A stretch of DNA of 64,000 bases. It comes from Pseudomonas lopnurensis. Lineage in GTDB: Bacteria > Pseudomonadota > Gammaproteobacteria > Pseudomonadales > Pseudomonadaceae. Position 1 is the stretch's first letter; the number at the start of each line of letters is the position of its first letter. The notes under the pieces were generated by a model. The model saw only the letters and a program-made list of their open reading frames with translations, was not told where the DNA came from and did not search any database. Below are positions 29,458-46,624 of the stretch, in pieces. The position numbers were made by a program, and so were the translations under genes. The stretch covers positions 1 to 64,000 of the forward strand of contig NZ_JADDIX010000063.1 of NCBI RefSeq assembly GCF_015070855.1, given 5' to 3'.

Positions 29458-32400
29458 ATGGACATGAACCGTCGACAGTTCTTCAAGGTCTGCGGTGTGG
29501 GCCTTGGGGCGTCGAGCATGGCGGCATTGGGCATGGCCCCGCCAACGGCGTATGCCGAATCGATCCGGCATTTCAAACTGACCAATACGCGCGAAACACG
29601 CAACACCTGCCCTTACTGCTCGGTCGGCTGCGGACTGATCCTCTACAGCCAGGGCAGCGGCGGCAAGAACGTCGCGCAGAATATCATCCATATCGAGGGC
29701 GACTCCGACCATCCGGTCAACCGCGGCACCCTCTGCCCGAAGGGCGCGGGCCTGCTGGACTTCATCCACAGCCCCAACCGCCTGACCCATCCGGAAGTCC
29801 GCGAAGCCGGCAGCAACGAGTGGAAGCGCATCGAGTGGAGCGAAGCCCTCGACCGCATCGCCCGGCTGATGAAGGACGACCGCGACGCCAACTTCATCGA
29901 GCGCAACGACAAGGGGCAGACAGTCAACCGCTGGTTGAGCACCGGCTTCCTCGCCGCCTCGGCGTCATCCAACGAAGCCGGCTACATCACCCACAAGGTG
30001 GTGCGCTCGCTCGGCATGCTGGGATTCGACAACCAGGCACGTGTCTGACACGGCCCGACGGTGGCAAGTCTTGCCCCGACGTTTGGCCGCGGCGCCATGA
30101 CCAATCACTGGAGCGACATCCAGAATGCCGATCTGGTCCTGATCATGGGCGGCAACGCCGCCGAAGCCCACCCGTGCGGTTTCAAATGGGTCACCGAAGC
30201 CAAGGCGCGCAACAAGGCGCGGCTGGTGGTGGTCGATCCACGCTTCACCCGTTCGGCATCGGTGGCCGATCTCTATGCACCGATCCGCACCGGCACCGAC
30301 ATCGCCTTCCTCGGCGGCTTGATCAACTACCTGCTGGAGAACGACAAGATCCAGCATGAGTACGTGGTCAACTACACCGACGTGGCGTTCATCGTGAAGG
30401 AAGGCTTCGGCTTCGAGGATGGTCTGTTCAACGGCTACGACGCCGACAAGCGCAGCTACCCGGACAAGACGGCCTGGGGCTACGAGCTGGACGAGGACGG
30501 CTTCGCCCGCGTCGACAAGAGCCTCAGCCATCCACGTTGCGTCTACAATTTGCTCAAGCAGCACTACAGCCGCTACACGCCGGAGGTGGTCAGCAACATC
30601 TGCGGCACGCCGCAGGACCGCATGCTGCAGGTCTGGGAAGCCATCGCCGAGACCTCGGCGCCGGGCAAGGCCATGACCGTCATGTACGCGCTGGGCTGGA
30701 CCCAGCACTCGACCGGCTCGCAGATGATCCGCACCGGTGCCATGGTGCAGCTGCTGCTCGGCAACATCGGCATGCCCGGTGGCGGCATGAACGCCCTGCG
30801 CGGCCACTCCAACATCCAGGGCCTGACCGACCTGGGCCTGCTCTCGAACCTGCTGCCGGGCTACCTGACCCTGCCGCTGGAGGCCGAGCAGGACTATGCC
30901 GCCTACATCGCCAAGCGCACCGCCAAGCCGTTGCGCCCGGGGCAACTGTCGTACTGGCAGCATTACGAGAAGTTCCACGTCAGCCTGATGAAGGCCTGGT
31001 ACGGCAAGAACGCCACGGCGGAGAACAACTGGGGCTACGACTGGCTGCCGAAGCTGGACATCCCCGGCTACGACGTGCTCAAGGTCTTCGACATGATGTA
31101 CCAGGGGCAGGTCAACGGTTATTTCTGCCAAGGCTTCAACCCGATCGCCTCGTTCCCCAACAAGGCCAAGGTCAGCGCCGCGCTGGCCAAGCTCAAGTAC
31201 CTGGTGATCATGGACCCGCTGGCCACCGAGACCTCGGAGTTCTGGCGCAACGCCGGCGAGTACAACGACGTCGACACCGCCGCCATCCAGACCACGGTGT
31301 TCCGCCTGCCGACCAGCTGCTTCGCCGAAGAGAACGGCTCGCTGGTCAACAGCGGGCGCTGGCTGCAATGGCACTGGAAGGCCGCCGAGCCGCCAGGCCA
31401 GGCGCAGACCGACGTGGTGATCATGGGCGGGCTGTTCCATCGCCTGCGCGAGCTGTACCGCAAGGAAGGCGGCGCCTACGCCGAGCCGCTGCTCAACATC
31501 GACTGGGCCTATCGCCAGCCGGAAGAGCCGACGGCGGAAGAGATCGCCCAGGAGTACAACGGCAAGGCGCTGGGCGACGTGTTCGACCTGCAGAGCGGCG
31601 CCCAACTGGCCAAGGCCGGCGAGCAGCTGTCCGGTTTCGGCCTGTTGCGCGCCGATGGCAGCACCTCCTGCGGCTGCTGGATCTTCAGCGGCTCCTGGAC
31701 CCAGGCCGGCAACCAGATGGCGCGGCGCGACAATGCCGACCCCTACGGCATGGGCCAGACCCTGGGCTGGGCCTGGTCGTGGCCGGCCAACCGGCGAATC
31801 CTCTACAACCGCGCCTCGGCCGACCCTGCCGGCAACCCCTGGAATCCGGAGAAGAAGCGCCTGGTGTGGTGGGACGGCGGCAAGTGGGGCGGCACCGACG
31901 TGCCGGACTTCAAGGTCGACTCGCCGCCGGCGGACGGCATGAACCCCTTCATCATGAACCCCGAAGGGGTGGCCCGGCTGTTCGCCATCGACAAGATGAA
32001 CGAAGGCCCCTTCCCCGAGCACTACGAGCCGTTCGAAACACCGATCGGGCGCAACCCGATGCACCCGGACAATCCGCAGGCCATCAGCAACCCGGCCGCG
32101 CGGGTGTTCAAGAACGACATGGAGCTGTTCGGCACCGCGAAGGAATTCCCCTACGCGGCCACCACCTACCGGCTCACCGAGCACTTCCACTTCTGGACCA
32201 AGCATTGCCGGCTCAACGCGATCACCCAGCCCGAGCAGTTCGTCGAAATCGGCGAGGTGCTGGCGAACGAGCTGGGCATCAAGGCCGGCGAGCGGGTCAA
32301 GGTGTCGTCCAACCGCGGCTACATCAAGGCGGTGGCGGTGGTGACCAAGCGCATCAAGCCGCTGACGGTGGACGGGCAGACCGTGCACCATATCGGCATC

Positions 32401-34280: not shown

Positions 34281-35194
34281 GTGGCAGGCACCATTCTCGA
34301 GCCAGGGCAGATCGAAGCCGCTGCCAGCAAACCACCCTTCATCAACCTGCCGCCGAGCGATCTGTTCGCCCTGCGCAGCGAGCGCCTGCACAGGCTCGCC
34401 GATGACCACCCGCTCGCCGCTTACCTGCGCCTGCTCGCCGATGTCTGCAAGGCACAGCAGCAGGTGCTGGACAACCCGCCGCCCACGGCCCCGCTGGACG
34501 AGCGCCGCACCCGCGAAAGCCTCAGGCACGACCTGCCACCGCTCGCCGCCGATACCCTGGTGCGCGACGATGCCTGGCTGCCGCTGCTGGACGCCTGGCT
34601 GGAGGCTTACGTGGTGCCGGACAACCCCGCCGTAGCCGCCGCCATCAACCAGCTGCGCGAGGCCGACAGCGGCCAGCGCAAGGCCTGGGCCGTGGCGCTG
34701 GTCAGCGGCCAGTACGACAGCCTGCCGCCGGCGCTGGTGCCCTTTCTCGGCGCCACCCTGCAGCTGGCCTGGAGCCATAGGTTGCTGCAACTCGACCTCT
34801 CGGCCATGCGCGAGCGCGAGGACCAGACCCACTGCCCCTGCTGCGGCGCACCGCCGATGGCCGGCATCATCCGTCATCGCGCCCAGCTCAACGGCCTGCG
34901 CTATCTGGTCTGCTCGCTGTGCGCCTGCGAATGGCACTACGTGCGCCTGAAATGCAGCCATTGCCGCAGTACCAAGAAACTCGACTACCTGCATTTCGAA
35001 GGCTCGCCGCAGGGCGTCAAGGCCGAGGTCTGCCCGGACTGCAACGGCTATCTCAAGCAGCTCTATCTGGAACTGGCGCCGGACGGCGAAAGCCTCTCCG
35101 CCGACCTGGCGACGCTGGACCTGGACCTGCTGCTGGCCGAACAAGGCTACAACCGACAGGCACCGAACCTGCTGCTGGCGCCGGGAGGCGATGC

Positions 35195-35198
<4 letters not shown>
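34281..35198 (+). CDS. fdhE: Formate dehydrogenase accessory protein FdhE
   Basis: A 305-residue protein with the four CXXC pairs of FdhE (CPCC, CSLC, CSHC, CPDC), likely rubredoxin-like metal sites. It helps assemble the respiratory formate dehydrogenase. The start is taken as GTG 34281 because AAAAGGAG is placed well and the length then matches the family; the longer open frame has no similarity upstream. It overlaps selA by the ATGA pattern. Confidence 0.91.
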
Positions 35199-36600
<1,402 letters not shown>

Positions 36601-36604
<4 letters not shown>

Positions 36605-38508
36605 TCGTCGGTACCGCCGGCCATATCGACCATGGCAAGACCGCATTGCTCGAGGCCCTCACCGGCCAGCAGGGCGATCGCCGCCGCGAGGAGCGCGAGC
36701 GCGGCATCACCATCGACCTCGGCTACGCCTACGCCGATCTCGGCGAAGGCACGCTCACCGGCTTCATCGACGTGCCGGGGCACGAGCGCTTCGTCCACAA
36801 CATGCTCGCCGGCGCCAGCGGCATCGACTGCATGCTGCTGGTGGTGGCCGCCGACGACGGCGTGATGCCGCAGACCCGCGAGCACCTGGCCATCGTCGAA
36901 CTGCTGGGCATTCGCCGGGCCATCGTCGCGCTGACCAAGATCGACCGCGCCGAACCGCAGCGCATCGCCGAAGTACGCCAGCAGATCGAGGACCTGCTGG
37001 CGCCCGGTCCGCTGGCTGGAGCGCCGATCTTTCCCGTATCCAGCATCAGTGGTCAGGGCGTCGATGCGCTGCGGTCGGCGCTGATCGACGAGGCGGCCAG
37101 GGTTCATGCACGCAGCGACAGCGGCCACTTCCGCCTGGCCATCGACCGCGCCTTCAGCGTCACCGGCGCCGGCGTGGTGGTCACCGGCACCGCCTTCGCC
37201 GGCCATGTGCGGGTCGGCGACGAACTGCTGCTCAGCCCGAGCGGGAAAAACGTGCGGGTGCGCGGCCTGCATGCGCAGAATCGCGCAGCCGGCGAAGCCC
37301 ATGCCGGCCAACGCGTGGCGCTGAACCTGGCCGGCGAGCGCCTGGCGGTGGAGCAGATCCACCGCGGCGACTGGCTGCTGCAGCCGCTGCTGCACGCGCC
37401 GACCCAGCGCATCGACGTCGAACTCCAGTTGCTGCCCGGCGAAGCCCACGAACTCAGGCACTGGACACCGGTGCACGTGCACCTCGGCGCCCAGGACGTC
37501 ACCGCCCGCGTCGCCCTGCTCGAAGGCGAAAGCCTGGCCCCGGGCGGGCGCATGTTCGCCCAGCTGCTGCTCAATGCGCCGGCCCACGCGGTGCATGGCG
37601 ACCGCGTCGTCCTGCGCGACCAGTCCGCCCAGCGCACCCTCGGTGGCGGCCACGTGCTCGACCCTTTCGCCCCGCCGCGCAACCGCCGCCGCGAGGCGCG
37701 CCTGGCGCAACTGCGGGCCTTGAACCAGCCGACCCTGGAACGCGCACTGCCGGACCTGTTGGCCAGTGCCATCAATGGGCTCGATCCGCAGGCGCTGGAG
37801 CGTCAGTTCAACCGTCCCCGCGGCAACTGGCAACTGCCCGCCGATGCGCTGGAGATCGCCACGCGGCAAGGTGCGCGCCTGTTCGATCACGAACATTGGA
37901 ACGCACTCGGCGAAACCCTGCTCGCCGCGCTGCAGCGCTTCCACGACGAACAGCCCGACGAACTCGGCCCGGATCGCGATCGCCTGCGCCGCTATGCCCT
38001 GCCGCAGCTGGAGCGCCCGGTGTTCATCGCCCTGCTGGAGCAGGCGCTGGCCGCCGGCGCCATCGAGACCAGTGGCCCCTGGCTGCACCGCCCTGATCAC
38101 CGTGTCCGCCTGAGCGATACGGAGGAAACGCTCAAGGAACGCCTCTGGCCGCTGCTGGAAGCCGGACGCTTCGATCCGCCCTGGGTACGCGACCTCGCCC
38201 GCGAACTCGGCGTCGAAGAAGCGCAGATGCGCCAACTGCTGCGCAAACTTGCCCGCCTCGGCCTGCTGCAACAAGTCGTAAAAGACCTGTTCTACCCCGA
38301 GTTCACCATTCGCCAGCTCGCCGGGCATGTACTGCAACTGGAAGCGCAAAGCGGCGTGATCCGTGCCGCCGCCTTCCGCGACCGCATCCAGCTCGGCCGC
38401 AAGCGCAGCATCCAGTTGCTGGAGCACTTCGACCGCATCGGCTTCACCCGCCGCTTCGGCAACGAACGCAAGGTTCGCCGCGACAGCGCGCTGGCGACGG
38501 AGCTATAG
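36601..38508 (+). CDS. selB: Selenocysteine-specific elongation factor SelB
   Basis: A 635-residue GTPase: G1 [12 protein letters not shown]3 DVPGHERF and G4 LTKIDRA in the N-terminal EF-Tu-like part, and C-terminal winged-helix domains that bind the SECIS hairpin. It delivers Sec-tRNA to the ribosome at the UGA of fdnG. The start is TTG 36601, in a TTGA overlap with the selA stop; it gives the family's N-terminus [12 protein letters not shown]. Last gene of the fdn-sel unit. Confidence 0.94.
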
Positions 38509-38831: not shown

Positions 38832-39149
38832 TCAGCGTTTCCCGGGTTGCGCTTCGGAAAGCTCCGGATAGCCGCCAGCATCGATCGCCTGCTCCAGCTG
38901 CTTCAAGCACAGATCGATCGCGAGGTCGCGTGTCCGCTTGCTGCTCCACTCCAGCTCGGCCAGCGTCTCGATCAGGTCGTGGTGACCGTCCTCGCAGATC
39001 AGCATGCCATGCTGAACGGTAAGCGTACGGCCCTTGAAGCTGAGCCGGACCGGGTCCCGCCCCGTCAACGAAGCGCCTTCCGCCAACAGGCATTCGATAT
39101 GGTCCCGCAGCGCATGGTAAACGCGACGGTCCTCGTGCATATCGCTCAC
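38832..39149 (-). CDS. Conserved-looking hypothetical protein, 105 residues
   Basis: A small soluble protein without recognised domain: MSDMHEDRRVYHALRDHIEC, then LLAEGASLTGRDPVRLSFKG and a charged C-terminus. Codon use is chromosomal (GC-rich third positions), unlike the element that follows. GTG 39149 is preceded by AGGGA; ATG 39140 is the alternative. It lies outside the 52-bp repeat, so it belongs to the host side of the junction. Confidence 0.65.
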   Translation of the reverse strand: MSDMHEDRRVYHALRDHIECLLAEGASLTGRDPVRLSFKGRTLTVQHGMLICEDGHHDLIETLAELEWSSKRTRDLAIDLCLKQLEQAIDAGGYPELSEAQPGKR

Positions 39150-39272
39150 GACTTTTCCCTATCCCTGGAAAGAAAAGCGCGAATTGTGACGCAGTTCACT
39201 TCATTAATCGATAGCCAAATGCCACCAGATAGCTCGAGCCGAGCGAGCGGCAGCCATGCACGAAGCGACACG

Positions 39273-39386
39273 CACTTGGCTCTGGATCGTTTGCAAGGTA
39301 CTTTGACGTCCGGGCCGACCAGTTTTTTCGACACCCCCTCGTCACAAGACGCGGCAAGAGCCAAAAAAAGCCCATGTAAATCAATA
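39273..39386 (+). pseudogene. Fossil of an integrase C-terminus abutting the left att copy
   Basis: The frame reads HLALDRLQGTLTSGP, matching HLSPDHLQDVLAFGP at the end of the integrase fossil at 42331-42635; both are followed by a TTTTCGACAC block and, about 40 bp on, by the selC repeat. The rest of the gene is unrecognisable. It suggests a previous integrase gene ended at this att copy too. Confidence 0.42.
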
Positions 39387-39426
39387 AGGAAGGCAATCGC
39401 AGCCGGTGCTGCGGCCGGGCTTCAAA
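39375..39426 (+). repeat. Left att copy: 5' part of selC
   Basis: A 52-bp perfect copy of 42625-42676: 13 bp of selC leader plus the first 39 bases of the tRNA up to and including the anticodon loop (ending CTTCAAA). Identity stops exactly there. It lacks the T arm and acceptor 3' half, so it is not a working tRNA gene but the scar of a site-specific integration. Confidence 0.9.
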
Positions 39427-39583
39427 TCCTGTGATATTCGCTGAATTAGCCGGACTATATTGGCCAACGCTAGTTGTTGCTGGAGATGCTCTACGTTCTT
39501 AACTCCGATCTTGGCTAGTATCGGCCTTCCTTGGCCATTAGCTTCGACACTTTTTCGACACATTCGTCTAGCAGGAACTCGGG

Positions 39584-41161
39584 TTACGTCGCCGAATAGT
39601 GTCCATGTGTAATCAAATCATCTGCTACTTGGGACAACACCAGCGCTCTTGCATTGATAAAGTCCACGTAAGGCTTATCGCCTGACCAGAACTCACTTGG
39701 AATCAGGGACGATTTGAATACCATTTCCTTGATACCGCCATCGATGGTTTGAAAGTACTGATAAGGGTCATTATCAGAGATAGCCCGATTGTCGCTGGAG
39801 TTTAGGAGACAAATGTTTGCTATGACATTTGACTCATGAAATGGAATTCCGAGTCCATTTAGGAATGACTTCGGATAGATATGATGAAACTCTCGCGCAT
39901 TATATGATGCCAGCGCTTCGCCGAGATCAATATTTTGACCAGTAAGAAAGCTCTTCGGTTGGCATTGAGCGAGCAGGCAAATGGTAGCCTTAGCTGCAGT
40001 TGAGTTTATACGCCATGTTTTTTTGAAAATCGAAGGGTCTATTTTTGCATGCATCTCGTCAAAAACGTAATTCCCTTTGGCTAACTCACGCATTTTCTCT
40101 ATATCGACCATCACATAAGAGTTTGTTCCGGCCTTATACCTTTGAGTAAAAGAACAGTGCCAAAACCATTTCTTTAGACTTGCGACTTGCTTTGCGTTTG
40201 GCTTAAGGCAGTCGGAATAGAAGGAAACCAACGGCACGAGCATAATCGGAAAGGGAATAAATACGAAATTCTTAATATGCAGCTGCTTTTCCAAAAAATC
40301 TACGCAAGAGTAGATAGCTTGCTTCAGCTTAGACATGCTCTCAATTAAGACTTCCGCCTTTACATCTACCAATGCGTCTGCATCGATTTTATTGATTGCG
40401 ATTGTTGCAAGGCACCGCATCAAAAGTGTTTCTTCTACTTGGTCAAACCCTTTGTCAGAAAGACTATCCAAGAGCCGCTCTATTTCATTTCTTAAGTCGA
40501 ACTGCTCGGACCATGTCCACGCCGCCAGCAGCTCCAAGGTGCTGAGGCTCGTTCCAGAAGAATTGATCCGTTGAAAGACCCTGCATACCTCTTGATTGGA
40601 TCGATCCTTGATTGTGACGACCGGAAATTCATAATCTTTAAATCGCTCCGTCAGGTCCGCAATAATCTTCTTTTCGTCGTCAGGAAAACGCGCCAGTTCT
40701 GGCAGCAACTTTGTTGTATCAAGTATGGTCCTAAGATTTATTGAGTTTTCTGGTGCTATAGAAGCATGCACAAACTCGTCAGTTGAAGGCACGAAGGAAA
40801 CATTAAACCTTGCCGCCAGCTCAGGATCTGTCGTTTCAGCGTCGGAATTGAATACGCCATATAGCGTTGTTAAGCGCTGCTGACCGTCGAGAACATAGTT
40901 TACCGGGAAATCTTCTGGAGTTTTTGGCAGTGCAAACCCTCCAACATCTCTCTCGTGCTTCAGCTCTTCCTTTGTTGACCACAACAACAAGGACCCTACC
41001 GGATATCCGTTATAAATTGAGTCTAGAAGACTCATTATTTGCTCGTCACCCCAGACATATTCACGCTGAAAAACAGGAATCTTTATATTCCCTCTCGACA
41101 CGTCACTTAGCAGTGCAGACAATCTCGGATTTGTGGGGGTAATTTTATGTGTTCCTGCCAT
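39584..41161 (-). CDS. DUF262-HNH protein, probable defence nuclease (GmrSD/SspE-like)
   Basis: A 525-residue protein. The N-terminal DUF262 (ParB/Srx-like) domain has FQREYVWGDEQ, the NTP-hydrolysing motif DGQQRLTTL (residues 92-100) and FQRINSSGTSLS. The C-terminus has an HNH-type centre of DUF1524 type: REFHHIYPKSF (423-433) and ICLLNSSDNRAISDNDP. This combination occurs in type IV restriction enzymes of the GmrSD kind and in SspE. It lies in the accessory arm of the selC prophage wreck and has lower GC and different codon use from its surroundings, which points to acquisition. Target not known. Confidence 0.8.
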   Translation of the reverse strand: MAGTHKITPTNPRLSALLSDVSRGNIKIPVFQREYVWGDEQIMSLLDSIYNGYPVGSLLLWSTKEELKHERDVGGFALPKTPEDFPVNYVLDGQQRLTTLYGVFNSDAETTDPELAARFNVSFVPSTDEFVHASIAPENSINLRTILDTTKLLPELARFPDDEKKIIADLTERFKDYEFPVVTIKDRSNQEVCRVFQRINSSGTSLSTLELLAAWTWSEQFDLRNEIERLLDSLSDKGFDQVEETLLMRCLATIAINKIDADALVDVKAEVLIESMSKLKQAIYSCVDFLEKQLHIKNFVFIPFPIMLVPLVSFYSDCLKPNAKQVASLKKWFWHCSFTQRYKAGTNSYVMVDIEKMRELAKGNYVFDEMHAKIDPSIFKKTWRINSTAAKATICLLAQCQPKSFLTGQNIDLGEALASYNAREFHHIYPKSFLNGLGIPFHESNVIANICLLNSSDNRAISDNDPYQYFQTIDGGIKEMVFKSSLIPSEFWSGDKPYVDFINARALVLSQVADDLITHGHYSAT

Positions 41162-41211
41162 AACATATTCCTTGCCAGTCTAAGTGGGCCACTACGCTAA
41201 GTGACTCTAAT

Positions 41212-41763
41212 TTAATTCCGCAAACTCAAATCTACTTTCATCTTGCAACTTCTTCGCTCAATGCTGCCCTCGCCGCCTGGGCAGTAATCACTTATGCGAG
41301 GCTCTTTTCCTACAACTACAATTTCTTTTTGCCGGGTTGGGATCGCTACGGCCGGCTCCGGGGCGACCCGAGTAGCTGGAACGATATTGGTCGCGCCCTG
41401 GGGGACGTAGTTTTTGTCGTTGAATACGGTTTGCTTGGGTGGTGGTTCTGCCGTAGCGGCTTGGGGCTGGGGCGTTTGTGGCTGAGGCGTTGCACCTCTT
41501 GCGGCCACTTCCTCTACTACCCTGTCCCAATCCTTGGTCGCTGTCGGCTCTGCTCGCGTGATCTCGGCAACGGGGGTTGGCTTGGGTTGGACGCGCTTAT
41601 CGGCGATGCCCTGGACGGTGCCTTTGAGGAATGCCGAACTCATCATCTGTAGTGCGGCCAGCATGATCGCGGTGCCGATCAGCCCTGGTATCAGCCATGC
41701 TACGGCTCCCTTGCGCGGGCGCCTTCTGATGTAGTCCGGGGCGTCGTTCCATTTAGCCTTCAT
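41212..41763 (-). CDS. Single-pass membrane protein of the selC element
   Basis: 183 residues: a short basic N-terminus (WNDAPDYIRRRPRK), one membrane helix (VAWLIPGLIGTAIMLAALQM, about 21-40), then a P/Q/A-rich linker and a C-terminus with two cysteines (YCPGGEG...RSCKM). No function recognised. Its position next to the repressor in a prophage accessory arm suggests an element gene. A periplasmic tail with a disulfide is plausible. Confidence 0.65.
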   Translation of the reverse strand: MKAKWNDAPDYIRRRPRKGAVAWLIPGLIGTAIMLAALQMMSSAFLKGTVQGIADKRVQPKPTPVAEITRAEPTATKDWDRVVEEVAARGATPQPQTPQPQAATAEPPPKQTVFNDKNYVPQGATNIVPATRVAPEPAVAIPTRQKEIVVVGKEPRISDYCPGGEGSIERRSCKMKVDLSLRN

Positions 41764-41820
41764 ATCTCCCTCTCCCTGTCCTTCGGGCGTACCAGCGCCT
41801 AGTCACTTCCTTGGTGATCG

Positions 41821-42105
41821 CTATCCCGCGCTCTGACTGGTCAAGTTTCGGTTGGCCTCGTCGTATTCCGGGCTTCGGTGGCCATGCTCTGGCTCGATCC
41901 GGCCGCTAACGAGCCAAAGGGCGTACTCGGGAAACGAGTCAGCCAGGATGCCGATCTCCTCCGTACCAATGCGGATTTTCTCGCTGCTGATGTTGCGCCA
42001 GCGGTCGTAGTTCTTGCTGCCCTTCTCGCTCAGGCGCTCCGGGCCGACCACACGCATCAATCGAAGCGCTCTATCTCGGAACGAATCCATATAGGTAAAT
42101 TTCAT
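41821..42105 (-). CDS. Prophage repressor-like small DNA-binding protein
   Basis: A 94-residue protein (MKFTYMDSFRDRALRLMRVV). The segment RWRNISSEKIRIGTEEIGIL followed by FPEYALWLVSG matches, from memory, small HTH repressors of pseudomonad filamentous prophages and related elements. ATG 42105 abuts a perfect 14-bp inverted repeat (42108-42141) that is the natural operator. It diverges from the excisionase-like fossil as the Pf4 repressor does from xisF4. Confidence 0.6.
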   Translation of the reverse strand: MKFTYMDSFRDRALRLMRVVGPERLSEKGSKNYDRWRNISSEKIRIGTEEIGILADSFPEYALWLVSGRIEPEHGHRSPEYDEANRNLTSQSAG

Positions 42106-42107
42106 GC

Positions 42108-42141
42108 TGCGTAACATTTACGCAAGGGTAAATGTTACGCA
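42108..42141. promoter_or_regulatory. Perfect 14-bp inverted repeat, operator of the prophage switch
   Basis: TGCGTAACATTTAC and GTAAATGTTACGCA flank GCAAGG. It overlaps the start region of the repressor gene and precedes the excisionase-like fossil, the expected place for a lysogeny-control operator. The arms are too long for a simple terminator and no T-run follows. Confidence 0.72.
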
Positions 42142-42192
42142 GACAGCAGCATTACTAGTAAAGACCAACATAGTGCAACAAAGGCCAAGGAC

Positions 42193-42330
42193 ATGGAAGG
42201 AAACCTACCGCCGATAGACCTGCTCAACGCGCCCCCGATCAATGCCGTGGCGCCAGTTCGCCGACTGGATTCGCATGGGCGAAGAACGTGTGGGACTGGA
42301 TTCGCAACGGCTACATTCCACTTCGCCGCC
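42193..42330 (+). pseudogene. Excisionase-like gene fragment, frameshifted
   Basis: The frame opens with MEGNLPPIDLLNAPPINA, then continues in a second frame (PWRQFADWIRMGEE) and a third (VWDWIRNGYIPLRR), which together give the AlpA/XisF-like pattern WRQFADWI...VW-WI-NGY-P-RR of Pf-type excisionases. At least two frameshifts break it. It runs without a gap into integrase sequence, showing that a deletion removed everything between. Confidence 0.6.
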
Positions 42331-42635
42331 ATGGTGCCTTCAGCAAGTGTCGTGATCGATTCGATGAGGCTGTTTCGCGTGCGGGTCTTGGATTGCCTGC
42401 CGGACAGAAGTCGCATGTGCTACGGCACACCTTGCCTCCCACTTCATAGCAAACGGTGGCAATATCCTGACCTTGCAGAAGATCCTGGGTCATTCGTCCT
42501 TGGCGATGACGATGCGCTACGCGCACCTGTCACCCGATCATCTGCAAGACGTGTTAGCGTTCGGTCCTGCTAAGGATTTTCGACACTCCCGCCTCGGAGC
42601 AGCATTCGAGACAGGAAAATCCTTTGTAAATCAAT
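42331..42635 (+). pseudogene. Tyrosine integrase C-terminal fragment, frameshifted
   Basis: The sequence encodes FDEAVSRAGLGLPAGQ, SHVLRHT (box II arginine and histidine), then, after a one-base deletion in the following codon, ASHFIANGGNILTLQKILG, HSSLAMTMRYAHL (catalytic tyrosine) and DHLQDVLAFGPAK. The stop falls at 42633-42635, inside the att repeat three bases before selC. Box I and the N-terminus are missing. Typical of phage integrases that end at the att site. Confidence 0.85.
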
Positions 42636-42676
42636 AAGGAAGGCAATCGCAGCCGGTGCTGCGGCCGGGCTTCAAA
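42625..42676 (+). repeat. Right att copy overlapping the functional selC
   Basis: Perfect match to 39375-39426. It carries the end of the integrase frame, the selC leader and the tRNA 5' half through the anticodon loop. Integration therefore replaced the 5' half and the promoter region of selC with element DNA, restoring the tRNA. Confidence 0.9.
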
Positions 42677-42733
42677 CCCGGTTGGGGGCGGCAGCCGTTC
42701 CCGGGTGAGTTCGACTCTCACTGCCTTCCGCCA
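42638..42733 (+). tRNA. selC: tRNA-Sec (anticodon TCA)
   Basis: A 96-nt tRNA including encoded CCA. The acceptor stem GGAAGGCA pairs with TGCCTTCC, discriminator G and CCA follow; the anticodon loop is CTTCAAA with TCA at 42672-42674, flanked by GCCGGG and CCCGGT; the long variable arm is GGGGGCGGCAGCCGTTCCC and the T loop GTTCGACTC. This is the unusual long tRNA-Sec shape, and matches E. coli selC in architecture. It supplies the selenocysteine tRNA for the fdnG UGA. Confidence 0.96.
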
Positions 42734-42894
42734 AATTTCTCGAGAACGCCTCGCTGAACAGGGCTCGCTGTCATCTTTGCAAAGGTGCTCCAAGCCATGC
42801 AGGACCGTACCCAGCACGGGATAGCAATTACAAAAGAAGCAGCAGAACGCTGATTCCACCGCCCCGCTGTTCGACCTAGCCAAGACGTGTGAAC

Positions 42895-42911
42895 CGCATA
42901 GGACCTATGCG
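42895..42911. promoter_or_regulatory. 17-bp palindrome upstream of a small membrane protein gene
   Basis: CGCATAGG and CCTATGCG flank a single A, a perfect dyad 47 bp before the start of the 129-residue gene. It could be an operator; no binder is known. Confidence 0.4.
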
Positions 42912-42957
42912 AAAGGAAAGCAGGAGCAAGGCAACGGCATGCCTTGAAGGACAGAAC

Positions 42958-43347
42958 ATGATCGACCTGGGCGACCTTCGACCCGATCCAATCGAGATAC
43001 GGGAATACAAACGAACCCGCAAAACGCGCAGGCCACTGTTCAGCATCGGAACGGGCATTGTCCTGGCCGCCATCATCGGCGTCAGCGGTTTTTGGGGCGG
43101 AAAGATCGGCTACGAACTGTTCCACGAGTGGCGTGCAAAGCAAGCGATGCAAGAGCTGGCACAAGCCGCCCAGCGCCATGCACAAGCTCAGGCACAGCAA
43201 CGACGCCTGCAAGCACAACGAGCCGCACAGGCACGAAGGGACCAAGTGTGGAATTCAAGAGCATGCCGCTTCTGGTGGGAACGCGCACCGAATGATCCGC
43301 AAGTGATCGCCAAGGCTAGAACGATGCAGTCTTGCCAAATGCAATAG
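42958..43347 (+). CDS. Small membrane protein with coiled coil, accessory region
   Basis: 129 residues: a charged N-terminus with MIDLGDLRPDPIEIREYK, a membrane helix (FSIGTGIVLAAIIGVSGFWG, about 30-49), then a long A/Q/R-rich helix (residues 65-100) and a short C-terminus with cysteines. No family recognised. ATG 42958 follows GAAGGA. It lies directly downstream of selC in an accessory patch. Confidence 0.6.
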   Translation: MIDLGDLRPDPIEIREYKRTRKTRRPLFSIGTGIVLAAIIGVSGFWGGKIGYELFHEWRAKQAMQELAQAAQRHAQAQAQQRRLQAQRAAQARRDQVWNSRACRFWWERAPNDPQVIAKARTMQSCQMQ

Positions 43348-43498
43348 CGGCAAAAAAGTGTCGAAATCACTACGGACCAAAGCGGAGCAATGCAGCCAAG
43401 CTAGTGGACCGTCTTGGAAGTTCGTTTATTCATACGTTGCCTCGACTCGGGAGAAGCGCAAGAGCCTATCGAGCGTAAGAGCTTGGGGGCACCTAGTC

Positions 43499-43551
43499 CT
43501 TGCTGGCGATTCCGACCACCATCGCCGGATCGCCAGCAAGCTGGCTCCTAC
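43499..43551. repeat. REP element
   Basis: CTTGCTGGCGAT and ATCGCCAGCAAG form an inverted repeat, followed by GGCTCCTAC. The same family appears at 53931-54005. No coding. Confidence 0.75.
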
Positions 43552-43636
43552 AACATAATGCTCAGTGAGTTAACAAACTAACCAAACAGGCCACTAGAAA
43601 AGCCGAAGACGGCGTGTTATTGCAAGCCAAAGAAAC

Positions 43637-43662
43637 GAGTTCAACTCCACTGCTTTCCACCC
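43637..43662 (+). repeat. Degenerate copy of the selC 3' end (candidate att scar)
   Basis: GAGTTCAACTCC then ACTGCTTTCCACC match the last 27 bases of selC at about 22 positions with one gap; most differences are transitions. It lies between the downstream membrane-protein gene and the toxin fossil. Confidence 0.4.
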
Positions 43663-43675
43663 GCTTTTCTCCGGT

Positions 43676-43961
43676 TTAGTCCCGTAAGGGAGGCCACATC
43701 CTGGCCGTATGAACCAACGCCAGTACCCATACGGCGCTTTCTTCGATCTGATACGAGGCGATAGTTTTCGTGGGGAATCAGCGCTCGGGTGCCCGGTACG
43801 TTCCCGAGCTTGCCCATGTCGGGGGGAAATCCGCCAGTTTGGCGGCCACGTTGCCGAAGAGTTCATCCATGCGAGCGACGGCAAGGGGATGGTCGGTCGC
43901 GATGAAGTCCCATATATCCAGACGGTCCTGCTCGGCTTCGGGCGTCCCGATGCCCCTTCAT
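43676..43961 (-). pseudogene. ParE/RelE-type toxin, multiply frameshifted
   Basis: The order of frames spells a ParE-type toxin: TPEAEQDRLDIWDFIATDHP then DELFGNVAAKLADFP, DMGKLGNVPGTRALIPHENY and QIEESAVWVLALVHTARMWPP. Three breaks interrupt it: one extra base just after the ATG, a wrong length in a run of six C, and a missing pair of bases in the LVYQI codons. The ATG overlaps the antitoxin stop, the normal toxin-antitoxin arrangement. It cannot produce a full toxin. Confidence 0.83.
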
Positions 43962-44224
43962 TTGAGGCCCAGCACCTGGTCACGGCGGGCAGCGAATGTC
44001 GCTTCGACCTCTTCATTGGAGCGGCCACGCGCCGCCTCGACGGCAGCGCGACCAGCCTCAACCTTCCTGTGCAGGAAGTCGTCGTAATCCCTGACCTGCT
44101 GTTGCTGGCGGATGAAGTCGCGCATGACCTGGGAGGCCGGTCGGTGGACGGCTTCCGCCGCCGCCATGAAATCGGCGCGCAACTCAGGCTCCAGTTTCAA
44201 GTTAAAAACCGCTTCTTTGGCCAT
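43958..44224 (-). CDS. Ribbon-helix-helix antitoxin (RelB/ParD-like)
   Basis: An intact 88-residue protein: MAKEAVFNLKLEPELRADFM (strand and first helix) with RPASQVMRDFIRQQQQ (second helix) and a C-terminal toxin-binding tail. ATG 44224 follows CAGGAGG. Its partner toxin is broken, so the gene may persist as an anti-addiction or regulatory protein, or simply be decaying more slowly. Confidence 0.82.
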   Translation of the reverse strand: MAKEAVFNLKLEPELRADFMAAAEAVHRPASQVMRDFIRQQQQVRDYDDFLHRKVEAGRAAVEAARGRSNEEVEATFAARRDQVLGLK

Positions 44225-44424
44225 GGCGAAGCCTCCTGAACGTACTGATTTCGTACATACGATGTGTCCACATTTAGGCCTGGCATAGGCTTGAGGAAAC
44301 AGGCCCGATGAATGGCAAGTGTCGAAATCACTGTTCAGGAATGCCGGCACCAGAACGATGGACGCGAAGGCCGGCAGAATGACCCGCTTGGGCCAACGTA
44401 GGCCAACCAGGGGCAGACAAAAAC

Positions 44425-44451
44425 GAGTTCGACGCCCACAACCTCCCGCCA
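44425..44451 (+). repeat. Second degenerate copy of the selC 3' end
   Basis: GAGTTCGACGCCCACAACCT followed by CCCGCCA matches the last 27 bases of selC (including CCA) at 22 of 27 positions without gaps. It ends eight bases before the stop of the lipoyl-protein gene, at the border where accessory DNA gives way to chromosomal genes. Confidence 0.42.
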
Positions 44452-44458
44452 ACCCCGC

Positions 44459-44923
44459 TCACTTCCACTGCAACGCCTGTACATGGGCGTTCGCCGGATC
44501 GAAATTGTCCAGCCGCATGCGCTCGGCGATCGCCGCCAGGGCCGCTTCGCCCCGCGGGAATTCGTCGCGCGCCGCACTCCAGTCTTCCGGCTGCAGGCGC
44601 ACCATCCAGCCTTCGCCGTAGCAATCGCGATTGATCAGGGCCGGCTGCTCGAGCAGCACCTCGTTCACTGCCAGCAGCTCTCCGGCGAGCGGGCTGCGCG
44701 CCGAGGCGGCGGCCTTGGCGAATTCCACCACGCCGAAACTGCGCTCGCGCTCGATGCGCGTACCGACGCGCTTGGGCGTGAAGGCGAAGATCTGCCCGTA
44801 TAGCGCACAGCCGTAGGCGGTCAGCCCAAGGGTGACGCTGCCGTCGTGCTCCTCGCGCAACCACAGGCTGTGCTCCGGCGCGTAGCGCAGCGCGTCGGGG
44901 AACTCCAGGCCGTGCAGGATCAT
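44459..44923 (-). CDS. GcvH-like lipoyl-domain protein
   Basis: A 154-residue protein with the hammerhead lipoyl fold of glycine-cleavage H protein. The lipoylated lysine is predicted at 70 (GVVEFAKAAASARSPLAGE), and the later motif INRDCYGEGWMVRL is the H-protein signature. It has an extended C-terminus and lacks neighbouring gcvT or gcvP genes, so it is not the ordinary H protein. H-like proteins paired with DsrE-like sulfurtransferases occur in the sHdr sulfur-oxidation system (LbpA). Here the DsrE-like gene is immediately upstream, overlapping by the ATGA pattern, which supports a shared thiol or persulfide transfer role (inference). Confidence 0.84.
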   Translation of the reverse strand: MILHGLEFPDALRYAPEHSLWLREEHDGSVTLGLTAYGCALYGQIFAFTPKRVGTRIERERSFGVVEFAKAAASARSPLAGELLAVNEVLLEQPALINRDCYGEGWMVRLQPEDWSAARDEFPRGEAALAAIAERMRLDNFDPANAHVQALQWK

Positions 44924-45294
44924 AGGGTCAGGACTCGTTCGTATTCGAGGATCATCTGCGCCAGCTCGCCACCGCTGGAAATATCGTCCAGCTCGGCGAT
45001 CAGCATGTCGGCGTCGAGGTTCACGCCGGGTTGGCGGCACATCAGCAGGCGCGCACCGGCCTGTCTGGCATTGCGGATGAAATGCAGCAGCGGCTCGCCG
45101 TTTTCCACTGCGCGGAGTGACTCGGCCACTTCGCGGCGCGCCAGTTGCGTGCCTTCGCCGGTGAGGTAGAGGGTCACTTCGGCATCCATGCAGGCCAGCA
45201 ACGTGGCGATATGAAAGGGTGCCGCGCAGCGCGCCGGCGTGCTGGGGCCGCTGACCACCAGGATCAGCACGCGCTGTGGGGTTGGTTCTGTCAC
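44920..45294 (-). CDS. DsrE-like sulfur-carrier protein
   Basis: A 124-residue DsrE/DsrF-fold protein. The fold markers are VLILVVSGPSTPARC, LLACMDAEVTLYLTGEGTQL and the conserved active-site cysteine at about 86 (ARLLMCRQPGVNLDADML); extra cysteines are at 23 and 35. Such proteins carry persulfides between sulfurtransferases. GTG start at 45294 behind GGAG. First gene of a two-gene unit with the lipoyl protein. No tus or hdr genes are nearby. Confidence 0.82.
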   Translation of the reverse strand: MTEPTPQRVLILVVSGPSTPARCAAPFHIATLLACMDAEVTLYLTGEGTQLARREVAESLRAVENGEPLLHFIRNARQAGARLLMCRQPGVNLDADMLIAELDDISSGGELAQMILEYERVLTL

Positions 45295-45442
45295 GTGGAT
45301 TCTCCGTGAAAATCATGGATCGCCGCTACGTTGGCGCCCAGGCGATGCCATTTACTCATAGGAGGAAACTATCAATACAATAGCCTACAGTTTTCAAATT
45401 CATGGTCTAGGATTCCTACGATGAATTGAAAGGAGATCGAGC

Positions 45443-46624
45443 ATGTTGGCGACATTGCTACCGGCCCTTAAAGAACTTGCCTTGCCGCTGAAACTGCGTT
45501 TGTGGGATGGCAATGAAATCGACATCGGGCCCTCCCCCCATGTCACGCTAGTCATCAAGGACCCCAACCTGATAACCCAGCTGGCGCACCCCAGCCTGGA
45601 TCTGCTCGGCGCAGCCTACGTCGAAGGGCGGATCGACCTGCTGGGGCCTCTCGAAGAGGTCATCCGCATCGGTGACGAGATGAGTCGCGCGCTGGGCGAG
45701 GACAATTTCCCCCCGCCCGCGCGCGAAGCGCATGACAAGGCCACCGATGCCGAGGCGATCTCCTACCACTACGACCTGTCCAACGACTTCTACCGACTCT
45801 GGCTGGACCAGGACATGGTCTATTCCTGCGCCTACTTCGAAACCGGCCATGAGGCCCTCGATCAGGCGCAGCAGGCCAAGCTGCGCCTGATCTGCCGCAA
45901 GCTGCGGCTCAAGCCAGGCGACCGGTTGCTCGATGTCGGCTGCGGCTGGGGCGGGCTGGCGCGTTTTGCCGCACGCGAATTCGGCGCCGAGGTGTTCGGC
46001 ATCACCCTCAGCCGCGAGCAGCTGGCGCTGGGCCGCGAGCGCGTGGTCGCCGAGGGGCTGCAGGACCAGGTGCGGCTGGAGCTGATGGATTACCGCGACC
46101 TGCCGCAGGACGGCCGCTTCGACAAGGTGGTGAGCGTCGGCATGTTCGAACATGTCGGCCATGCCAACCTGCCGCTGTACTGCCAGCAGCTGTTCGGCGT
46201 GGTGCGCCCGGGCGGACTGGTGCTCAACCACGGCATCACCTCGCGGCATCTGGATGGCCGGCCGGTCGGCCATGGGGCGGGCGAGTTCATCGACCGCTAC
46301 GTATTCCCCCACGGCGAGCTACCGCATCTGGTGAAGATCAGCGCCTGCATCAGCGAGTCGGGGTTGGAAATCGTCGACGTGGAAAGCCTGCGCCTGCACT
46401 ACGCCCGCACGTTGCAGCTGTGGAGCGAACGCCTGGAGGCGCATCTGGAGCAGGCCCGGCAGTTGGTTCCCGAGCGCGCCTTGCGAATCTGGCGGGTGTA
46501 CCTGGCCGGCTGCGCCTATGGCTTCCGCCGCGACTGGATCGACCTGCACCAGGTCCTCGCCAGCAAACCGCTGCCGGACGGTTCCCACGAGCTGCCCTGG
46601 ACCCGCGCCGACCTGTATGGCTGA
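45443..46624 (+). CDS. cfa: Cyclopropane-fatty-acyl-phospholipid synthase
   Basis: A 393-residue SAM-dependent enzyme that methylenates unsaturated acyl chains in membrane phospholipids. The N-terminal lipid-binding part precedes a class I methyltransferase domain with LLDVGCGWGGLARFAAREFG, and catalytic signatures YSCAYFETG and FEHVGHANLPLYC. ATG 45443 follows AAAGGAG. Divergent from the DsrE-like gene. Confidence 0.94.
   Translation: MLATLLPALKELALPLKLRLWDGNEIDIGPSPHVTLVIKDPNLITQLAHPSLDLLGAAYVEGRIDLLGPLEEVIRIGDEMSRALGEDNFPPPAREAHDKATDAEAISYHYDLSNDFYRLWLDQDMVYSCAYFETGHEALDQAQQAKLRLICRKLRLKPGDRLLDVGCGWGGLARFAAREFGAEVFGITLSREQLALGRERVVAEGLQDQVRLELMDYRDLPQDGRFDKVVSVGMFEHVGHANLPLYCQQLFGVVRPGGLVLNHGITSRHLDGRPVGHGAGEFIDRYVFPHGELPHLVKISACISESGLEIVDVESLRLHYARTLQLWSERLEAHLEQARQLVPERALRIWRVYLAGCAYGFRRDWIDLHQVLASKPLPDGSHELPWTRADLYG

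Follow-up and report, generated by a model that had tools for sequence, protein, structure and literature searches.

Why does selC, the gene for selenocysteine tRNA (tRNA-Sec), stand behind a second copy of its own 5' half in Pseudomonas lopnurensis, and from where does the DNA directly upstream of it come? Most elements that target tRNA genes take the 3' end of the gene, and its promoter is left alone. The question arose in a stretch of 64,000 nucleotides, hereafter the window (RefSeq assembly GCF_015070855.1, contig NZ_JADDIX010000063.1, positions 1 to 64,000), for which an earlier note, made from the letters alone, had described selC as occupied by the wreck of a Pf-type filamentous prophage. 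The tRNA gene itself is complete (42638-42733, plus strand; ARAGORN; Rfam tRNA-Sec, 79.2 bits). In our favoured account, which as a whole we consider very probable, a Pf-like prophage integrated in the anticodon arm of selC with reversed polarity and later suffered a deletion of approx. 7 kb.

Results

The repeated half of selC and its boundaries

The perfect repeat of 52 bp (39375-39426 = 42625-42676) was found just as the earlier note had placed it, nested in a 75-nt pair of 89% identity. The tRNA accounts for 39 of the 52 bp and the leader in front of it for 13. Sequence comparison defined a left attachment half at 39388-39432 (plus strand), in which selC bases 1-39 are identical and are followed by the phage-side TCCTGT. 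The TTCGACAC-type repeats at the left end (39543-39561, plus strand) are putative integrase arm sites; similar motifs stand beside the core of the phage WX-TY.

For comparison we used Stutzerimonas, the genus to which the window belongs, where selC was present in 54 of the 56 genomes searched. Chance was excluded as the origin of the half-gene repeat, with a second copy of the 5' half in 24 of these 54 genomes (23 from the genus search plus G025; the copies of G014, G032 and G071 are split between contigs). Both copies lay on one contig in 16 loci, and there the exact identity ended at tRNA base 39 in ten, at base 38 in four, at base 28 in L052 and at base 25 in L039. Bases 38-39 close the 7-nt anticodon loop, and the boundary that had been proposed at this loop is therefore seen in 14 of 16 loci. 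The identity of the other loci started either 0-4 bp before the first tRNA base or inside the gene, at base 2 or 5; that of the window reaches 13 bp into the leader. The longer reach is explained by an integrase 3' end (TTTCGACAC ... TGTAAATCAATAA; 39326-39387, plus strand) that an older element left as a scar in front of the left copy. According to sequence comparison the scar is common to the window and the sister locus L041, and therefore at least two 5' insertions have taken place in this lineage.

The attachment identity thus comprises tRNA bases 1-39 and stops where the anticodon loop does, the other 13 bp being integrase-end leader. The earlier reading of the repeat as selC leader plus tRNA 5' half stands for the 39 tRNA bases, but the 13-bp leader part is a trace of the older scar. 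We infer a strand exchange within the anticodon loop, which the end of identity at bases 38-39 bounds and does not map. An exchange in the acceptor stem had at first been suggested by GGAAGGCA, which follows right after the integrase end in both polarities. It was rejected, because in 14 of 16 loci the left copies stay identical as far as base 38-39, which is more than an exchange at bases 1-8 requires.

Anatomy of the element

The gene order was found as described in the earlier note, with cargo and repressor on the minus strand, a palindrome, an excisionase fossil and an integrase end abutting the tRNA. The cargo gene (39584-41161, minus strand) encodes a defence protein of 525 aa with a GmrSD N-domain (DUF262; Pfam GmrSD_N, E 5.7e-34; PADLOC PDC-M55C, 3.4e-73); for the C-terminal nuclease domain of GmrSD, no C-domain family was matched by the window proteins in Pfam at E up to 1. 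Next to it lie h183 (41212-41763, minus strand; phrog_7381, 9e-11), a predicted single-helix membrane protein of 183 aa, and a phage repressor with an open frame (41821-42117, minus strand; phrog_147, E 1.2e-20), which is 89-90% identical to the repressors of the loci L064 and L050. The predicted operator (42107-42142) is a palindrome that is shortened in the window, those of L050 and L064 being longer by 28 bp in the DNA alignment.

The excisionase (xis) fossil at 42193-42319 (plus strand) is frameshifted and cut off by the deletion; it was recognised by DNA alignment to L031, L040, L050 and L064, and the intact homologue of L040 matches phrog_1864. The 3' end of the integrase gene (42321-42637, plus strand; DNA alignment; PF00589, 4.9e-4; phrog_1, 1.2e-8), likewise frameshifted, reaches the tRNA. 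By alignment to full-length relatives the two remnants are fused at about 42319/42321, and relative to L050 approx. 7 kb are missing from the window, the virion part being gone between xis and int. The proposal that a deletion of the virion genes had fused both remnants was therefore confirmed. What the window retains of the Pf-type order is only the repressor, the operator and the xis and int fossils.

The repressor, xis and int regions gave blastn matches to Pf phages of P. aeruginosa, and the window DNA was, in pieces, 82-95% identical to four full-length same-site prophages (L031, L040, L050, L064). The Pf-type relationship claimed in the earlier note is borne out by both results, and the hidden Markov model searches, which might have found no inovirus relationship, matched phrog_147, phrog_1 and PF00589. 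Judged by these similarities, the element arose by decay of a Pf-like (inovirus) prophage. We propose that it can no longer excise itself after the loss of its virion, replication and most integrase sequence.

Empty site and occupied loci

An empty site was found in the sister genome G021 (L041). As had been expected, selC there lies directly after the gene that in the window starts at 38832, with a single intact 5' half and no element; the opposite case, both 52-bp copies without an element, did not occur. Window positions 38856-39432 are colinear with L041 13492-14050 (78.5%), and 42613-42733 with L041 13981-14101 (94%). In five genomes (G002, G012, G011, G031 and G068) the copies are 10.2-10.9 kb apart and enclose full-length-looking prophages; for the one in G031 (L064) coat-like, Zot-like and integrase genes were confirmed by PHROGs. 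The same-site relatives share the gene order of the phage Pf8.

In the window selB (36409-38508, plus strand, for the open reading frame as listed, with similarity from residue 65; NCBIfam TIGR00475, E 2.6e-142) precedes the element. The distance from the selB stop to the left copy was 38-48 bp in 14 of 16 occupied loci, the exceptions being the window (879 bp) and L048 (-2 bp). From the selB stop to selC itself we measured 32-51 bp in 24 of the 30 Stutzerimonas loci without a 5' copy; four others had 144, 558, 692 and 1931 bp, and in two selB was not found. A survey of the family detected selC in 170 of 298 genomes, 54 of them Stutzerimonas, and 40 of the 116 others were fetched. The selB-selC gap was 5-118 bp in 28 of these and 357 bp in one, and 11 had no selB nearby. 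Short gaps at unoccupied loci, taken together with short gaps between selB and the left copy, mean that the element splits selB from selC.

Integrase phylogeny and polarity

The Pf8 integrase shared 65-67% of its amino acids with four same-site integrases, which were 87-95% identical to each other. In total 143 integrases were collected (136 relatives and 7 reference rows) with a query built on these elements, so that the sample leans to close relatives; the rows include near-copies and some genomes twice (e.g. L082, a copy of G031). The site was readable in 66 and unreadable in 77. Sense selC followed the integrase in 50 of the readable cases and an antisense tRNA in 16 (eight selC; eight Ser, Gly, Met or Lys).

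A quick tree was calculated from 76 rows, thinned from 119 distinct ones, and a careful tree from 36 rows. The known site states need a single change on both. The careful tree supported the 5' clade with 100/99 and the whole selC clade, which joins the 5' and the selC 3' integrases as tRNA-Sec-type integrases, with 100/98. One 3' group was placed as sister of the 5' clade with a support of 83 in the quick tree, while the branch order inside the selC clade is open in the careful tree; the long basal branches L119 and L122 were flagged by the tree tool. On these trees the 5'-targeting integrases form one clade inside the selC-specific group, and since all readable outgroups target the tRNA 3' end, the polarity would have flipped once. 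In a viral contig (L180) the selC beside a 5'-type integrase was seen to lack its own middle part.

DNA upstream of selC and the question of the promoter

The earlier note had assumed that the element supplies the tRNA-Sec 5' half together with the region upstream. This holds for the upstream DNA, as the inserted DNA certainly supplies everything upstream of approx. 42625, but the 39 identical tRNA bases are not assignable to host or phage. The conserved integrase-end leader (42616-42637, plus strand; sequence comparison) follows the pattern GAAAA-N4-TTGTAAATCAA, which hardly varies among 55 integrase ends (25 distinct sequences). This leader could be a -10 region that sets the transcription start at the first tRNA base, or it could be an attachment arm. 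It also contains what we take to be a partial IHF-like word.

Among the 24 occupied genomes the DNA before selC was an integrase end in 15 and other element DNA in eight, and in one it was not visible because of a contig end. Three further genomes had an integrase-end-like leader but no left copy. In total, 26 of the 54 Stutzerimonas genomes thus have element-derived DNA immediately before selC (15 integrase ends, 8 other, 3 scars), and an integrase end or scar preceded selC in 6 of the 40 fetched genomes of other Pseudomonadaceae (four by tblastn, two by motif). Scars with a dead integrase kept the leader at 12-16 of 17 positions in L038, L041, L048, L052, L055, L236, L241, L242, L265 and the record of phage Y11, and more weakly in L037 (7/17) and L245 (11/17).

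We hypothesize that the element DNA acts as the selC promoter. A competing explanation, to which we give somewhat less than an even chance, is that the leader serves only as a binding arm for integrase or IHF, and that selC transcription relies on read-through or on a promoter in another place. Its position close to the recombination core suits an arm, and two further results weigh against a promoter in the leader and favour the arm. A consensus scan of 41700-42800 found 0 sigma-70-like sites (shuffle mean 0.5), and eight occupied loci (L039, L045, L046, L061, L062, L063, L065, L266) have no integrase-end leader; therefore either the leader is not needed for selC there or another upstream region serves. 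The leader is, however, still kept in most scars with a dead integrase, which speaks against a mere arm. The loci form a natural series from full-length prophage to wreck to scar, in which an essential part of selenocysteine decoding had its upstream DNA replaced and promoter replacement is directly testable. A whole selC after an integrase-end scar also occurs in the unverified record of phage Y11 (L070, OQ572412), where it may be host DNA in the assembly.

Cargo, h183 and the short forms

The cargo slot beside the left copy varies between species. Cargo scans with PADLOC and Pfam were made on 15 loci and did not include the 362-aa protein of L062 itself. PADLOC models matched in seven of them, as GmrSD-type PDC-M55C in the window, dCTP deaminase in L040, PD-T4-9 in L050, caspase in L048, Old in L046 and L061, and PDC-S06 in L045; a NACHT domain in L052 was detected by Pfam only. 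The seven other loci of the 15 scanned gave no PADLOC match. Pf prophages carry defence accessory genes, e.g. the KKP module described in PMC11341870. Like the prophages of that account, the present elements have anti-phage genes in the accessory slot of a Pf-like prophage; unlike them, they carry other systems, which persist at selC after the loss of the virion genes.

The protein h183 has an N-terminal helix and a conserved C-terminal part, and it is kept in most wrecks. No Pfam or NCBIfam family matched it, and its AlphaFold model was of low confidence (mean pLDDT 56.5). Pairwise dN/dS was 0.07-0.37 across all 55 pairs; as this covers the time before prophage decay too, it is no proof of selection after decay.

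The short forms (2.3-4.5 kb, cargo plus h183) might be satellites moved in trans by a helper integrase and not simple wrecks, which we regard as unlikely. The frame of h183 is full length in 11 of 14 short forms and altered at the N-terminus in a twelfth (L046), which favours satellites, but L055 and L266 have no intact h183, which speaks against them. The same right junction is combined with different cargo, L061 and L062 being alike in upstream sequence while one carries an OLD gene and the other unrelated genes. On the other hand, xis or int fossils remain in the window and in L059, which marks these as deletion products, and all examined copies are at the orthologous selB-selC site, fitting vertical inheritance with cargo replacement. 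Within the groups of short forms without an integrase end (L061, L062, L063, L065, L266, L039, L045 and L046) the right junctions are common and the cargo differs, as possible cargo exchange or satellites would leave it.

Discussion

Proposed history of the locus

In the favoured account a tyrosine integrase would have put a Pf-like filamentous prophage into the selC anticodon arm, with a polarity opposite to that of its P. aeruginosa relatives. The phage would have brought tRNA bases 1-39 as its attachment half, and the old 5' half would have been left with its upstream DNA at the left junction. selC would have been rebuilt from phage-carried 5' DNA and the host 3' half, so that the integrase 3' end would land directly upstream of it. 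The later deletion of approx. 7 kb would have fused xis to int, with the loss of virion, replication and most integrase sequence. The defence gene, h183 and the repressor would be the survivors, and the selC upstream region would now be element DNA. The anatomy, the Pf relationship, the empty site, the deletion and the integrase clade on which this account stands are observations. Against it speak the sigma-70 scan, the eight occupied loci without the leader and the attP junction: the exact pattern of this junction was not found in the viral contig collection, its lone match in the window was the left copy itself, and excision was thus not seen. A rival origin, in which replication slippage or homologous recombination copied the half-gene and the phage genes arrived later by chance, is highly improbable. 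Even if the mobility of the window's decayed right end cannot now be checked, the same half with the same end base (38-39 in 14 of 16 loci) lies around full-length-looking prophages with their integrase end at the tRNA, and the relative without the element has a single copy.

Likeness of the anticodon arm to the antisense T-arm

How could an integrase lineage turn around on one gene? Read from the integrase end, the core is GGG-AGTCGAA-CCC in Pf8 and GGG-CTTCAAA-TCC here. The sense anticodon arm of selC (GGGCTTCAAACCC) agreed with four antisense T-arm cores at 11 of 13 positions; the next-best anticodon arm reached 9 of 13, and selC came first of 35 distinct tRNA sequences of the window's genome. 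With shuffled selC a score of 11 was reached anywhere in 19 of 5000 cases. On the phage side TGTTTTT stands beside the core in 9 of 18 left copies, where WX-TY has TATTTTT, which gives 15/20 over core plus arm; the other nine left copies score 11-13/20. Two comparisons reduce the force of this argument. Sense-strand T-arms of other tRNAs score 10-11/13, and because the T-arm itself is nearly palindromic the likeness alone does not make selC unique. Further, host selC itself scores 12/20 against the Pf8 core-plus-arm string, which leaves the phage side as the one informative part of that comparison.

A polarity flip through the likeness of the selC sense anticodon arm to the antisense T-arm is plausible on these scores. 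The wider proposal is tentative, and we hold it to be rather doubtful: that a single reversal moved the selC-specific integrase lineage off the antisense T-arm (3' end) and onto the sense anticodon arm, owing to the resemblance of the tRNA-Sec anticodon arm (UCA) to an antisense T-arm, and that the phages have since carried the tRNA-Sec 5' half with a promoter, split selC from selAB, and on decay left selenocysteine decoding locked onto phage DNA. The two polarities occur on one gene at 65-67% integrase identity, close enough for a search for the residues and core bases that decide between them.

Relation to known elements

Elements recombining with the 5' part of a tRNA gene were reportedly described by Zhao and Williams in 2002, a work cited in PMC6563490. 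Half copies and empty site together agree with an element that carries the tRNA 5' part and restores the gene on integration. In the portion of PMC7549136 that names the Pf-tRNA-Sec phages of P. aeruginosa (Pf8, PfAC13, WX-TY), their attP is the 27-bp 3' end of selC. The present element resembles these inoviruses, as they appear in that portion, in gene order, repressor, xis, integrase and the target gene selC. It differs in that they use the 27-bp 3' end with the integrase end facing the tRNA 3' end. The present element uses the 5' half instead, and its integrase end points at the 5' end of the tRNA. Its repeat comprises tRNA bases 1-39; the 27-nt copy of the 3' end at 44425-44451 is part of another remnant further downstream.

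Reversed tRNA polarity is already known, with CalSub-E1 as an example in the relevant part of PMC6563490. The tRNA 5' part is duplicated there as here, but the element types and the tRNAs differ, a comparison that goes by the descriptions in that part. In a literature search limited to an open collection, no paper on integration into the selC 5' half or on Stutzerimonas inoviruses was found. The element is a 5'-half-targeting branch of Pf-tRNA-Sec-like phages, and this branch is new; reversed tRNA polarity as such is known.

Downstream remnant and neighbouring genes

The remnant of a second, 3'-type element lies downstream of selC at 42734-44451. It ends with the 27-nt copy of the selC 3' end at 44425-44451, which matches at 22 of 27 positions; the next-best match within 42734-46000 reached 15 of 27. 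Motifs of the form GTGTCGAAA were seen in it at 43358 and 44319. From the 3'-end copy and these motifs it follows that selC has element DNA on both sides. ParDE-like genes were suspected in the remnant by eye and were unsupported by Pfam. The 27-nt copy was present in ten genomes, nine from the genus search and G020 added later. A 5'-half copy upstream of selC was combined with the 27-nt copy downstream in G002 (L031), G068 (L269) and G032 (L043/L066).

The link to selenocysteine incorporation drawn in the earlier note holds in that selA (34919-36604, plus strand; NCBIfam TIGR00474, E 5.7e-181), selB, selC and a selenocysteine insertion sequence (SECIS) element (30043-30101) are all present in the window. 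Between selB and the element lies the hypothetical gene hyp105 (38832-39149, minus strand; tblastn), for which no match was found in Pfam, PHROG or NCBIfam. By tblastn it is upstream of selC on the minus strand in the window and in L041; several other species have it on the plus strand, downstream of selC.

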